NCBI RefSeq assembly: GCF_900157305.1
Contig: NZ_LS974202.1
Location: 744,001 to 808,000, forward strand
Length of the DNA: 64,000 nt
Source of the DNA: Mesotoga infera
GTDB lineage: Bacteria > Thermotogota > Thermotogae > Petrotogales > Kosmotogaceae
Direction of reading: 5' to 3'
Shown here: one piece after another, positions 59,379-64,000 of the stretch
How the letters are laid out: every line of letters begins with the position of its first letter
Numbering within the stretch: position 1 is the first letter of the stretch
Position numbers and translations under genes: made by a program
The notes under the pieces: generated by a model
Told to the model about the DNA's origin: nothing
The model's database searches: none
Seen by the model: the letters and a program-made list of their open reading frames with translations, nothing else

Positions 59379-61600
59379 GCTAATTCCGCCTCTGAGAGCT
59401 GTGACAGCGCGATTTCCCTGTATGTCTGACAGCTTGCCATGAGTTCGTGGTGTTTGCCGATTCCAACCAGATTGCCCTCGTCAAGGACGAGTATCTGATC
59501 GGCGTTCTTTATCGTCGCTATTCTCTGGCCAACTATTATCATTGTGCAATCACCCGTTTCTTCTTTTAGTTTTCTTCTCAGCGCTGCATCGGTTTTGAAA
59601 TCGAGAGCCGAAAAGCTGTCATCAAAGAGAAGTATTTTCGGTTTCTTCAAAAGCGCTCTGGCTATGGAAAGTCTCTGTTTCTGTCCACCAGATACGTTTG
59701 TTCCGCCCTGAGAGATAGGAGAGTTGTATCCTCCTTCTTTTGTGGTTATAAACTCAAGTGCCTGGGCAATTTTAGCAGCCCTCTCGACTTCTTCCTCGGA
59801 AGCCGTCTCGTCGGCGTATTTCAAGTTCGACTCTATCGTTCCACTGAAGAGGATGCCCTTCTGGGGAACATAGCCTATCTTCTCTCTCAGATCGTGCTGA
59901 CTCACTTCCCGGATATCTATTCCGTCAACCAGGACCTGACCACCGCAGACATCGTAGAACCTCGGTATCATGTTCAATAGTGTCGATTTTCCCGAACCTG
60001 TGGAACCGATGATTGCCGTTGTTTGTCCCGGGAGTGCCGTGAAGCTTATGTTGTTCAGGATGTTTTTTTCAGCTCCGGGAAAGCGGTAGCAGACATTCTT
60101 GAACTGCACGATTCCTTTGAAATTCTTTCCGAACTTCTTTGGGTTCTTTGGGTCTTTTATCTGCGGATCGACTTCAAGTATTTCGGAGACTCTGGCTGCC
60201 GAAACGGAGGCTCTCGGGATCATTATAAACATCATGGTCAACATGAGGAAGGCGAAGATGATCAACATTGCGTACTGAATGTAGGCCATCATATCTCCGA
60301 CCTGCATGGTTGAAGCCTCTATCTGGTGGGCTCCTACCCAAACGATGAGGAGCATGGTTCCGTTCATGACGAACATTATCGCAGGCATCAGCACAACCAT
60401 TACCCGGTTGACGAAGAGCTCGGTCTTCGTGACGTCCCTGTTCGCAGTGTCGAATCTCTCTTCTTCGAATTTCTGGGTATTGAAGGCCCTGACGACCATT
60501 AAACCGGACAGGTGTTCCCTTGTGACCAGGTTCAGTCTGTCTATGAGTTTTTGTATCTTCTTGAATTTCGGCAGAGCTATGGCGAATACGATACCCACCA
60601 TGCCGAGCAATATAATAACGGCGAGGGCGATGACCCAAGACATGGATGTGCTCTTCTCAAGCGCCCTTATTATTCCGCCGACACCTATGATTGGCGCGTA
60701 GAATACCATTCTTATTATGAGAACAACCACGAGCTGTATCTGGGTTATGTCGTTGGTCGTTCTGGTTATGAGCGAGGCTGTAGAAAACCTTGCGAATTCT
60801 GAGTTCGAGAAATTCTCGACCTTTTCGAAGACGTCTCTCCTCAGGGCTCTGGCCGAGGCGGCCGCTATCTTCGATGCGATCAAGGCGACCATTATAGTGC
60901 ACAGTGCGCTCAGCAGGGTTACGAGAACCATTGTAAAACCTGTACGGAGGACGTAACCGCTCTGCAGCTTTTGGGTGTTCATACCAAGCTCTTCGTAGAT
61001 CTCCTTCACGGCGAGGGCGGCCGATTGGTTGACTATGTTTTCGCCCATGACTTGGACCATGGTATCGACCTGATTGAGCATTTCCAGCCTCTGTGCTTCA
61101 GGCATCAGGCGCATCAGCAGGAAGACGTTCGCTCCTTCCGGTATGGTGAAACCGCTGGGAGCGGTGAAGTTCCCGTTTTCCCCGGCCATGGCGCTCTTGA
61201 CTCCGGAATAGGCCATAAGCGCTTTGCCAAGAATCAGATTGAGTGAGTCGCGACTTTGAATGTCGTCGGACTTCAGAATATAGACTTCTTTACTCTCAAG
61301 TGCCGGATACTTCTTCAGGTTCTTTTCGTAATCGGCCGTGCTTTTGTTGACCAGAACGTAGTGTTCCAGAATTTGTTGCCTGTCTTCTCCGCTCATGAAA
61401 AGCGACACATTATCGAACGTTTCTTTACTTATAGCCTCGGGTATGGCGTCTTCGATACCGCCCTGCTGAATACCGACGTTTACGATATTCGACATATAGT
61501 CTGGGAGGGCAAGCTCGGACATGGCCTGGACGAAGAGCAGCGCTACCGCGACTATGATGAACACAGTGTAGGGTTTAAGGTACCTGATCAGCTTGAACAT
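59375..61600 (-). CDS. Heterodimeric ABC multidrug exporter subunit, degenerate ATP site
   Basis: 741 residues. After helix 1 (about 13-32) there is an unusually long extracytoplasmic insertion (~35-220) before helices 2-6. ATPase domain: Walker A GSTGSGKST, signature VSGGQKQRLS, and Walker B ILLFDDSFSALD with Asp where the catalytic Glu should be, so this site binds but probably hydrolyses ATP poorly. Partner of the 624-residue subunit. The insertion is not typical of drug exporters and may contact substrate or another protein. Confidence 0.9.
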   Translation of the reverse strand: MFKLIRYLKPYTVFIIVAVALLFVQAMSELALPDYMSNIVNVGIQQGGIEDAIPEAISKETFDNVSLFMSGEDRQQILEHYVLVNKSTADYEKNLKKYPALESKEVYILKSDDIQSRDSLNLILGKALMAYSGVKSAMAGENGNFTAPSGFTIPEGANVFLLMRLMPEAQRLEMLNQVDTMVQVMGENIVNQSAALAVKEIYEELGMNTQKLQSGYVLRTGFTMVLVTLLSALCTIMVALIASKIAAASARALRRDVFEKVENFSNSEFARFSTASLITRTTNDITQIQLVVVLIIRMVFYAPIIGVGGIIRALEKSTSMSWVIALAVIILLGMVGIVFAIALPKFKKIQKLIDRLNLVTREHLSGLMVVRAFNTQKFEEERFDTANRDVTKTELFVNRVMVVLMPAIMFVMNGTMLLIVWVGAHQIEASTMQVGDMMAYIQYAMLIIFAFLMLTMMFIMIPRASVSAARVSEILEVDPQIKDPKNPKKFGKNFKGIVQFKNVCYRFPGAEKNILNNISFTALPGQTTAIIGSTGSGKSTLLNMIPRFYDVCGGQVLVDGIDIREVSQHDLREKIGYVPQKGILFSGTIESNLKYADETASEEEVERAAKIAQALEFITTKEGGYNSPISQGGTNVSGGQKQRLSIARALLKKPKILLFDDSFSALDFKTDAALRRKLKEETGDCTMIIVGQRIATIKNADQILVLDEGNLVGIGKHHELMASCQTYREIALSQLSEAELA

Positions 61601-62061
61601 CAGTTTTGTCCTCTTTCTGTTGGATTGTGCGATTCTTCAAGTATTGTTCTAAGCTTTTCAAGCCCTTCCAGAATGAAGTCAAGATCTTCTTCAGTGGCGG
61701 TCGACAGTGCCCTTCTCATCTTCTGGGCAAAGGCAATGAGGTGTCTCTTGACGGGTTGTTGATACTCTTCCGCAAGGCTTATCATAACGATTCGCCTGTC
61801 TTTTTCGCTTCTCTTCCTTTCAACTATCTTCTTTTCGACGAGTCTGTCGATGATCCCTGACACCGTGCTATTTGAGAGATCGAGTTTCCTGCTTATATCG
61901 CTTACCTTCATATCGCCATAGTGATTCAGCACTCTCATGACAAGGATCTGTGACTGGGTAACATCCAATTTCTTAAGGTCGCTTTCGAAACTCTGCTTGA
62001 TAAGCGACATTATCCTCTTGATCAGTGTCAACATTTCTTCTATTTTCGAACTCTCTTCCAA
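61600..62061 (-). CDS. MarR-family transcriptional regulator
   Basis: 153 residues with a central winged helix: VTQSQILVMRVLNHYGDMKVSDISRKLDLSNSTVSGIIDRLVEKKIVER, then the wing KRSEKDRRIVMISL. TTG start at 62061 with AAGGTGG upstream. It shares one base with the exporter gene and so heads a three-gene drug-efflux operon. It probably represses its own promoter through the palindrome at 62120-62139. Confidence 0.92.
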   Translation of the reverse strand: MEESSKIEEMLTLIKRIMSLIKQSFESDLKKLDVTQSQILVMRVLNHYGDMKVSDISRKLDLSNSTVSGIIDRLVEKKIVERKRSEKDRRIVMISLAEEYQQPVKRHLIAFAQKMRRALSTATEEDLDFILEGLEKLRTILEESHNPTERGQN

Positions 62062-62119
62062 CTAAACCACCTTCTGAGCAGATTATTGGACCTTTCGTAA
62101 CCGAATAATCTGTAGTCGA

Positions 62120-62139
62120 ATATTTCGCGTACGAAATAT
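62120..62139. promoter_or_regulatory. Putative MarR operator
   Basis: ATATTTCG and CGAAATAT are perfect arms around CGTA. The 20-bp palindrome lies immediately downstream of the -10 box of the MarR-operon promoter, where binding would block initiation. Confidence 0.68.
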
Positions 62140-62168
62140 ATTTTACAGCAATAAACCGGAAGTGTCAA
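62140..62168 (-). promoter_or_regulatory. Promoter of the marR-exporter operon
   Basis: Minus strand: -35 TTGACA at 62163-62168 (perfect), 17-base spacer, -10 TAAAAT at 62140-62145 (five of six). Confidence 0.75.
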
Positions 62169-62298
62169 CGGAAAAATCAAAAAATCGGAACTCAATAAAT
62201 TACGGGACTACGGTAAAGGAACTTCGCGATACAGTACGGAGGGAACTTCTCAGAGCTGTTTGCTCTCTTTCAAAGGGCGATTTTCTACACTTGACGTT

Positions 62299-62368
62299 CG
62301 ATATTCATCGATACTTAACAATTATAGTTTGACAACTATCAAACCGGGTGATATGATCTAAATGTAAG
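62299..62368 (+). promoter_or_regulatory. Promoter/operator A of the twin-peptide locus
   Basis: -35 TTGACA at 62329-62334, 17-base spacer, -10 TATGAT at 62352-62357. GTTTGACAACTATCAAAC (GTTTGA/TCAAAC arms) covers the -35. The 70-base block is 59/70 identical to the minus-strand block at 62854-62923. The conserved part extends upstream of the -35 (TTCATCGATA, AATTAT), consistent with a bound regulator. Confidence 0.8.
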
Positions 62369-62399
62369 AGATACATCGAACTTAGAGGAGGGAGCATAA

Positions 62400-62498
62400 A
62401 TGAAATCTACAAAAGTCAGATCGGTGAAAGAAATCTTCGACCAGATAGAAAAAATCAAGGTAGACGCCCTCAAGTCCGGAGCCTTCTACCGCTTTTAA
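62400..62498 (+). CDS. 32-residue peptide A
   Basis: Not recognised. The 32-codon frame has an ATG at 62400 preceded by GAGGAGGGAG (AGGAGG eight bases before), a consensus promoter 43 bases upstream, and an intrinsic terminator downstream, so it is a complete tiny transcription unit. The peptide is basic and amphipathic: a Lys/Arg-rich N-terminus, KEIFDQIEKIK in the middle (heptad-like Ile spacing), and a C-terminus ending SGAFYRF. It has no Cys, no signal peptide and no GG leader motif. Positions M1, I12, I16, K18, D22, G27 and F29 are identical in the twin at 62725-62823, and charge is conserved at about eight others. Possible roles: signal peptide, bacteriocin/toxin, or regulator of a membrane protein. 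Confidence 0.75.
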   Translation: MKSTKVRSVKEIFDQIEKIKVDALKSGAFYRF

Positions 62499-62553
62499 GA
62501 AGCGTGAAGATAGCATAACAGAGCCCCTTCAACATAGAGAAAGAAAGTCATTG

Positions 62554-62580
62554 GAGCCCCTAAAAAGGGGCTCGTTTTTT
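62554..62580 (+). terminator. Intrinsic terminator of the peptide A gene
   Basis: GAGCCCCT (62554-62561) and AGGGGCTC (62566-62573) with loop AAAA, then a T6 run. An extra upstream copy of GAGCCCCTT at 62521-62529 could pair with the same right arm instead. Confidence 0.92.
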
Positions 62581-62620
62581 ATAACCGGATATTTTTGAAC
62601 AATTACAAGTACCGGTCAAA

Positions 62621-62650
62621 AGAAAAAAAGAAGGGTCTCGCTGGAGACCC
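62621..62650 (-). terminator. Intrinsic terminator of the peptide B gene
   Basis: On the minus strand GGGTCTC and GAGACCC with loop CAGC, followed by TTCTTTTTTTC. It lies about 75 bases after the peptide B stop and 41 bases from the opposing terminator. Confidence 0.85.
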
Positions 62651-62724
62651 AATGTCATCTTTCTTTCCGTGGGGGAAAAAGGGGGGTTGCTTTGTATGTT
62701 CGGTTCTACTGGTGTGCCTTTTAG

Positions 62725-62823
62725 TTAGAGAGCCAGAAAATTACCCAACCTTGCAGAATCCGATCTCGCTTTGTCTATGGCTTTCTGGATATCTCTAATT
62801 CTCGTGAAAGTCCTTATTCTCAT
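62725..62823 (-). CDS. 32-residue peptide B, twin of peptide A
   Basis: Not recognised. ATG at 62823 with GGGAGGG about five bases upstream; stop TAA at 62725-62727, with a second in-phase-independent TAA nearby. It is exactly as long as peptide A. The N-terminus is Arg-rich (MRIRTFTRIRD), the middle is IQKAIDKARSD, and the end is GNFLAL, more hydrophobic than FYRF in A. Identity to A is 7 of 32, with conservative exchanges at most charged positions (R/K2, R/K10, D/E11, D/E17, R/K20, R/K25). It has its own consensus promoter and terminator and is convergent with peptide A. It was probably generated by an inverted duplication followed by fast divergence of the coding part. Confidence 0.72.
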   Translation of the reverse strand: MRIRTFTRIRDIQKAIDKARSDSARLGNFLAL

Positions 62824-62853
62824 GCTGATCCCTCCCGCAGGTTCGATATTTTT

Positions 62854-62923
62854 CTTACATAATGATCATATCACTTAGTTTGATAGTTGTCAAACCATAA
62901 TTATTAAATATCGATGAACATCA
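62854..62923 (-). promoter_or_regulatory. Promoter/operator B of the twin-peptide locus
   Basis: Minus strand: -35 TTGACA at 62888-62893, 17-base spacer, -10 TATGAT at 62865-62870. It contains the same GTTTGACAACTATCAAAC element as promoter A. The 70-base block aligns without gaps to 62299-62368 with 11 differences. Confidence 0.8.
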
Positions 62924-63083
62924 AACTATGCTGGTATGAAGGCCATTCCGCTACTATTATTTGTTGATTCTAAAGACTTCGGACCATAGAACGGGTTATG
63001 AGCATACACCATCGACGAACAAACTGCCCTACTGTCAGTATTCACGGATATTTATATACTTTCCGTTCATTTCTTCTGCATCT

Positions 63084-63144
63084 TTTAGAATGAGTTCTAA
63101 ACATATCGAACACCTTGTATGGTATAATTCTATTCATATCGAAC
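63084..63144 (+). promoter_or_regulatory. Promoter with repeats upstream of the 63.16 kb gene
   Basis: Extended -10 TGGTATAAT (TATAAT at 63123-63128). A perfect dyad TTTAGAA-TGAG-TTCTAAA occupies 63084-63101 at the -35 position. CATATCGAAC occurs twice, at 63102-63111 and 63135-63144, exactly 33 bases apart (about three helical turns) and flanking the -10. Confidence 0.6.
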
Positions 63145-63161: not shown

Positions 63162-64000
63162 TTGCGAATGGTTCCCGGATATGTTGAATTAGTTGAAATT
63201 CTCATGGCGTGCGCTTATGCCGACAAAGAGAGTTATTTTGATTCAGTCTCGGAGGATCTGGGCGTCGATTTTAAGCCGGGTGAAGAGCTGGAGCTTTTTC
63301 TCCGGTTCTTGAGAGGCGATTCGAACTGGTCGATAAAGGTGGCCGTGAACGTATTCTCCGAAATAAAGGATAGCGTGATCTTCTTCTGCGACATGCCCCC
63401 CTCTTCTGGAAAGATAGTGACTATCGAAGAGACTATGGAAAGCCTCAAGAACGATTTCAGAGGTAAGGCCAGATGCGTGGTCGAGAGCATCCTTCTGAAC
63501 AACTTGAATTTCTCGAAGGAAGAGGTTGAAAGGGCACTGGGTGGTGATCTAAATATAGTTGCCGAAGCCGTCGATAGGGCTAGCGACCTTTCGGAGAACA
63601 CGACCTGGTTCATTACCCAGCTGGTGAACTTCCCGCAACAATCTCAGGAGATTCTCATGTTTGCCCTGACAGTTCTGAAGAAGTATTACGAAGATTCGGG
63701 GCTCAGGAAGAAAAACCTTGGCTGTATAAACGAGACCATTGAATCCTTTGGTCAGGAGGAATACAAAGAAGTCGCCTCAGGGTTTCTGGAACTCTACGGA
63801 GTAACGGCCAGGGATGAGTCTCCTCTGTACCTACTTCTGCAGAACACGCTCCAGTATCCGGGCGTGAGATACGCCTACGCCTGCGACAAGCAGTTCGTCG
63901 TTCTCAACAATCAGCTCAAGCAACTCGAAGAAATCGTCAACCCTTATATCACCGACCACATTCTCAGACTCTTTCTCAAAAACTTCTCCGATCCTACGAA
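63162..64000 (+). CDS. Unrecognised soluble protein, truncated by window edge
   Basis: About 279 residues visible, running off the right edge. No signal peptide or membrane helix. Predicted mainly alpha-helical, acidic, with segments such as ADKESYFDSVSEDLGVDFKP near the N-terminus and LKQLEEIVNPYITDHILRLF near the visible end. The start is uncertain: TTG at 63162, eleven bases after TGGAG, is used here; ATG at 63168 and GTG at 63150 are in frame. Some long regulators of this general type carry a C-terminal winged helix, which would lie beyond the window, so a regulatory role is only a guess. Confidence 0.65.
   Translation, partial: MRMVPGYVELVEILMACAYADKESYFDSVSEDLGVDFKPGEELELFLRFLRGDSNWSIKVAVNVFSEIKDSVIFFCDMPPSSGKIVTIEETMESLKNDFRGKARCVVESILLNNLNFSKEEVERALGGDLNIVAEAVDRASDLSENTTWFITQLVNFPQQSQEILMFALTVLKKYYEDSGLRKKNLGCINETIESFGQEEYKEVASGFLELYGVTARDESPLYLLLQNTLQYPGVRYAYACDKQFVVLNNQLKQLEEIVNPYITDHILRLFLKNFSDPT

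Follow-up and report, generated by a model that had tools for sequence, protein, structure and literature searches.

Bacterial small RNAs that also encode a small protein, such as RNAIII, SgrS and SR1, form the group of dual-function sRNAs, and ArsR regulators are known mainly for metal sensing. In the Thermotogota, a small-peptide locus of Thermotoga maritima, TM1316, was reportedly described by Frock et al. in 2013. The coding of peptides by sRNAs has been treated elsewhere (PMC5521070), and in the icaR mRNA of Staphylococcus aureus a C-rich motif in the 3' UTR pairs with the Shine-Dalgarno (SD) sequence (PMC3868564). About a dozen putative ncRNAs are on record for T. maritima, four of them with small ORFs and none with peptide evidence (PMC3636130). 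Transcriptomes of Kosmotoga olearia have been published, and the main text of that paper makes no mention of ArsR (PMC5674127). Small proteins and regulatory 3' UTRs thus far remain largely uncharted in the Thermotogota.

The locus described here lies in a window of 64,000 nucleotides (C1:744001-808000) of a Mesotoga genome, G000, that consists of a single contig of 2,965,660 bases. It comprises two convergent peptide genes, A and B, and a divergent operon for two ArsR-type regulators. The preliminary description covered the two genes; the ArsR operon, the operator-like palindromes and the C-rich 3' UTR of B are additions to it. A literature search found no paper that describes the locus; we read it as a previously undescribed arrangement in which a dual-function small mRNA adjoins two autoregulated repressors. 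Like icaR, the B mRNA has a C-rich 3'-UTR motif able to pair with an SD sequence, and it is tied to a repressor circuit; unlike icaR, which encodes the repressor itself, it encodes a 32-residue peptide, and its conserved block (C6-U4/5-C5-AC with a hairpin) is longer than the icaR motif. With the dual-function sRNAs it shares a short transcript, a small ORF under selection and a separately conserved non-coding part. It differs from RNAIII, SgrS and SR1 in having no sequence relation to them (no Rfam model matched the window at its gathering score), in probably being controlled by two divergently encoded ArsR proteins, and in its confinement to the Kosmotogaceae. The two regulators share with the ArsR/SmtB proteins (NolR, SmtB, the SdpR-type autorepressor) a C-terminal winged helix and autoregulatory-looking operators, but depart from them in their large N-terminal helical domain, their arrangement as tandem paralogues and, on a reading of the HTH helix region, the lack of a visible metal site.

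The peptide genes and their promoters

Gene A (MKSTKVRSVKEIFDQIEKIKVDALKSGAFYRF; 62400..62498, plus strand) and gene B (MRIRTFTRIRDIQKAIDKARSDSARLGNFLAL; 62725..62823, minus strand) are each made up of 32 codons and a stop. Both agree in frame, length, strand and position with the preliminary description, as does the ungapped identity of the two peptides, 7 of 32 residues (M1, I12, I16, K18, D22, G27 and F29, on reading the two sequences). Purifying selection acts on both genes at the peptide level. Among eight Mesotoga genomes, B has a pooled pS of 0.62 against a pN of 0.16, with 146, 164 and 369 differences at the three codon positions; in shifted frames the synonymous excess is absent (pS ~0.21, pN ~0.26). 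For A, the values are 0.62 and 0.28 (six genomes with an intact gene of 32-33 codons). The ORFs of relatives are frames of 31-35 residues, mostly 32-33, with change biased to third positions, and B always has 32 codons in Mesotoga (G000, G001, G002, G004-G007 and G009). Thus, the proposal that these are real peptide genes, which the preliminary description had staked on the frame being conserved in relatives and on the absence of a non-coding pattern of change, is borne out. That a peptide is translated is close to certain.

The accompanying idea of diversifying peptides is not supported, given the purifying selection on both genes and the decay of A to a pseudogene in two species. In these genomes, G005 and G007, the decayed copies (L075 around 5096; L076 around 6172) keep the promoter and operator sites and have lost the reading frame, as judged by eye. 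Because B is found in eight Mesotoga genomes, of which only six have an intact A, B is the core gene in the Kosmotogaceae and A an accessory paralogue found in Mesotoga only.

The peptides are amphipathic, with a net charge of +1 to +6 and a mean hydrophobicity below zero, and contain no hydrophobic stretch. No leader or secretion signal is visible by reading, and sequence searches of Pfam, NCBIfam, PHROGs and PDB gave no significant match. Peptides of the sister genera are merely ~13-25% identical to B, with length and a C-terminal G-x-F pattern conserved in most. We consider it probable that the peptide acts inside the cell rather than being exported.

Among 103 Thermotogota genomes, B is present in 13 (eight from Mesotoga, five from three sister genera) and in none elsewhere; of the ten Mesotoga genomes searched at the DNA level, eight gave a match to the locus. 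Convincing hits of the peptide profile were limited to Mesotoga and two sister genera. A fourth genus (G010) has, upstream of ArsR1, a 32-codon gene, MRKRNSNDWKKIERYVDDVKLSVMKLGNFFSL, that escaped the profile and was found by reading the DNA; its operator is perfect and its 3' UTR is C-rich. The apparent absence of the peptide gene from G003 is resolved by a contig that stops at the start of ArsR1, and neither the peptide gene nor the ArsR pair was seen in G008 (78% complete) or in genus g5. The ArsR pair occurs in 14 genomes of the family, and in every one with a sequenced flank the peptide gene lies divergent to ArsR1. The constant neighbour is the operon ArsR1-ArsR2-HAD hydrolase. The MarR gene and two ABC exporter genes to the left of A belong to the locus in G000 and G004 alone; in other Mesotoga their place is taken by QueD-like and EcfT-like genes (names from reading the sequences). 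No conserved exporter, protease, immunity gene or metal transporter was seen near the locus. The parallel to TM1316 that had been raised at the outset is not supported and comes down to a short peptide gene and a common phylum: among the short ORFs of Thermotoga-type genomes the peptide profile matches none convincingly, the ABC and MarR genes are not general to the locus, and the neighbours of A and B are different.

Each gene has a consensus promoter with 17-base spacing, an SD sequence and its own terminator, as first described. The promoters, TTGACA-17-TATGAT in both cases (A, 62329..62357, plus strand; B, 62865..62893, minus strand), each score 11/12 and have TG before the -10 box (extended). 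The predicted intrinsic terminators lie at 62554..62573 (A, plus strand) and 62633..62650 (B, minus strand). Promoter-like sites number 5 against 2.5 in shuffled sequence, and terminator-like sites 4 against 0.9.

The flanks and promoter regions of A and B form a 97-bp inverted repeat with 81% identity. In G000 and G004 the A promoter shares 69-83% identity with each of the B promoters, and just 48-58% with the A promoters of other Mesotoga; peptide A of G000, by eye, resembles the other A peptides. The simplest reading of these comparisons is that gene conversion from B across the inverted repeat overwrote the A promoter in the G000/G004 lineage. As the A promoter looks overwritten by one of the B type, the likeness of the two would reflect recent homogenisation. 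The preliminary description had inferred co-regulation from this likeness. The promoters are indeed of a co-regulated type, and every copy retains its operator-like sites, but the argument from likeness fails as stated.

A conserved C-rich 3' UTR in the B mRNA

Between the stop codon of B and its terminator lies CAACCCCCCUUUUUCCCCCACGGAAAGAAAGAUGAC, which contains a conserved C-rich block, CAACCCCCCTTTTTCCCCCACGGAAAGAAAGATGAC (62654..62689, minus strand), recognised by pattern, covariance model and conservation. Across five diverse Mesotoga genomes, identity reaches 96% in the block, compared with 73% for the coding sequence of B, 59% at third codon positions and 33% downstream of the terminator. 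The pattern of the block core has exactly one match per genome in 12 of the 103 genomes and none in a reversed control. The covariance model matches 13 of the 103, which are exactly those seen with the peptide gene. In G011, where the B locus lies around C1:627594-627801, a weak second match of this model occurs (C1:914804-914877, minus strand; E 0.009). Paralogue A is without the block. We hold it very likely that the block functions as RNA.

A possible small hairpin, UUUUCC-loop-GGAAAG, would leave the C-rich sequence exposed; with slight covariation, one pair being changed on both sides, this structure is no more than suggested. The C-rich tract is complementary to purine-rich SD sequences, and pairing of this kind is a plausible but tentative mode of action. 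Against its own leader the tract does no better than against generic SD regions in 10 of the 13 genomes; in the other three, all outside Mesotoga, own-leader pairing is clearly above that background. In this respect the B locus is unlike icaR, and icaR-like control in cis was set aside as the leading mode.

Operator-like palindromes and the ArsR pair

An 18-bp palindrome, GTTYGA-N6-TCRAAC, recurs three times at each peptide promoter and twice at the ArsR1 promoter. In A, a palindrome search placed the operator-like sites O1 (GTTCGATATTCATCGATA) at 62296..62313, O2 (GTTTGACAACTATCAAAC) at 62327..62344, over the -35 box, and O3 (GTAAGAGATACATCGAAC) at 62364..62381, in the 5' leader. The corresponding sites of B are at 62909..62926 (O1), 62878..62895 (O2, over the -35 box) and 62841..62858 (O3, in the leader); among five diverse Mesotoga they are 79, 90 and 89% identical, respectively, against 62-66% for the intervening gaps. 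At every peptide promoter the palindrome or a near-match covers the -35 box, and related sites are found 31 bp upstream of it and, within the leader, 37 bp downstream. The same search found two sites at the ArsR1 promoter, GTTCTAAACATATCGAAC (63094..63111) and ATTCTATTCATATCGAAC (63127..63144), a pair that recurs at 33-bp spacing in Mesotoga loci. Shuffled sequence gives 0.3 sites per 3.6 kb at equal stringency.

G000 has three perfect copies of the palindrome, one at each peptide promoter and a third within a coding sequence; the third, from its position, was treated as chance rather than as an operator. Across the family there are 0-3 perfect sites per genome, usually including a peptide promoter, and the regulon therefore looks local. 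Position and co-occurrence make ArsR1 and/or ArsR2 the probable regulator of these palindromes, a view that we hold with some confidence. Another local regulator in G000, the MarR encoded at 61600-62061 on the minus strand, is missing from the loci of most relatives. Upstream of its gene, an inverted repeat at 62100-62160, ATTTCGCGTACGAAAT, looks like a MarR operator.

The ArsR1 gene begins at 63162 on the plus strand and runs past the end of the window at 64000; it encodes a protein of ~355-358 residues, assigned by domain and structure matches. The genes for ArsR2 and the HAD-type hydrolase follow 3' of it, outside the window (G000:C1:808229-809961). ArsR1 and ArsR2 are tandem paralogues with the winged helix at the C-terminus and a helical domain at the N-terminus. 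By its winged helix-turn-helix domain, ArsR1 is a member of the ArsR/SmtB family: its G006 orthologue matches Pfam HTH_5 at E 1.2e-13, and the G000 protein scores 55.5 bits with NF033788, for which the cut-off is 55. In the predicted structure of ArsR1 (pLDDT 84, pTM 0.79), the N-terminal 260 residues form a confidently modelled helical domain, for which no Pfam or PDB counterpart was found; Foldseek matched the model at the winged helix only (NolR/SmtB). The model of ArsR2 is poorer (pLDDT 72). Read from the sequence, the region of the HTH helix, YVDELAKLLGLS, lacks the expected cysteine ligands. No full-length relatives of ArsR1 or ArsR2 were found outside Kosmotogaceae-type genomes, including in a wider search of other bacteria for the ArsR2 family. 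In G055 there is a partial match at a contig end.

Function of the locus and related peptide arrays

We propose an ArsR-repressed dual-function small mRNA that supplies a peptide as well as a regulatory RNA element rich in C, a reading to which we give an even chance. It brings together a reading frame under selection, a conserved RNA block, repeated palindromes and strict linkage to the ArsR genes. The regulon would consist of the divergent ArsR1-ArsR2 operon, a ~235-nt monocistronic B mRNA and, in Mesotoga, the accessory inverted paralogue A. ArsR1 and/or ArsR2 would bind the 18-bp palindromes both at the peptide genes, where these cover the -35 box and parts of the leader, and at their own promoter, and all these promoters would be repressed until a signal acts on the N-terminal helical domains. 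Once derepressed, the B mRNA would yield its basic amphipathic peptide, probably cytosolic, and the C-rich single strand and hairpin of its 3' UTR would most likely serve as a regulatory RNA element. The C-rich strand might pair with G-rich SD sequences in trans or, in some species, with its own. An action of either the peptide or the RNA on the two ArsR proteins, if real, would be a new type of input for the ArsR family. In this compact, family-wide locus, conservation marks the peptide, the RNA element, the operator and the regulator separately, so that a single mutation would suffice to test any one of them.

The main rival holds that the 32-residue peptide, or its C-terminal GNFLAL/GAFYRF, is the ligand of ArsR1 or ArsR2 in an autoregulatory or quorum-sensing loop. 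Two regulators with large domains, always present together with the peptide gene and divergent to it, would suit such a loop, as would the modelled ArsR1 helical domain with no solved counterpart and the diversified tandem arrays formed by related peptides. A secreted pheromone or bacteriocin, however, is expected to have a leader or processing site and a conserved dedicated exporter. Neither these nor an adjacent conserved protease was seen, and the ABC genes adjoin the locus in two genomes only. Further, within Mesotoga peptide B is conserved and does not vary from strain to strain, and a signalling loop has no need of a highly conserved 3' UTR; we regard it as unlikely, though worth keeping in view. 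The opposite emphasis, in which the C-rich 3' end is the functional product and the ORF merely protects or times the RNA, draws on the block being more conserved than the coding sequence and being shared with sister genera whose peptides are so divergent. This is difficult to square with the clear purifying selection on the peptide, with its conserved length and G-x-F terminus, or with paralogue A, a selected peptide without the block, and we think it improbable.

Two further explanations carry much less weight. Small, basic, amphipathic peptides encoded by convergent genes with similar promoters could suggest that A and B are the two partners of a toxin-antitoxin or bacteriocin-like module. 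A type I toxin would be a hydrophobic membrane peptide with an overlapping antisense RNA; these peptides are not hydrophobic, and the two genes have separate terminators and no antisense overlap. The supposed partner A is missing from other genera and decayed in two Mesotoga genomes while B persists, and there is no conserved immunity or export gene, all of which makes such a module highly improbable. The match of the ArsR C-terminal domain to ArsR/SmtB models would fit a metal- or stress-responsive detoxification locus with the peptide as effector. Its atypical 260-residue N-terminal extension, the cysteine ligands missing from the HTH helix region and the lack of a nearby metal transporter argue against this, the least probable of the explanations considered.

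A profile built from tandem peptides of other genera detects arrays of several short genes in the Kosmotogaceae. It matches peptide A weakly (E 6.7e-4, in a search of its own genome), and hhalign aligned the array profile with that of the A and B peptides at a probability of 79% over 20 columns. On these profile comparisons, A and B are likely homologous to the array peptides of ~32 residues. It is conceivable, though we doubt it, that all these peptides, single or in arrays of up to five, are signals, intracellular or exported, for a new peptide-responsive class of ArsR regulators, with the mRNA doubling as a C-rich RNA. In G000 a five-peptide operon lies outside the window (C1:890634-891318; L200:6500-7330; minus strand). 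It encodes basic peptides of 30, 33, 33, 30 and 32 residues, each with its own SD, in an order conserved in several Mesotoga, and is followed by genes for a zinc-ribbon-type protein and nagA (names from reading the sequences). Similar three-gene arrays adjoin nagA in Kosmotoga-type genomes (L029, L030 and L192). The operon is duplicated in G002, where a group II intron-type reverse transcriptase, split over two frames, lies near one of the two arrays (L189:8479-9715).
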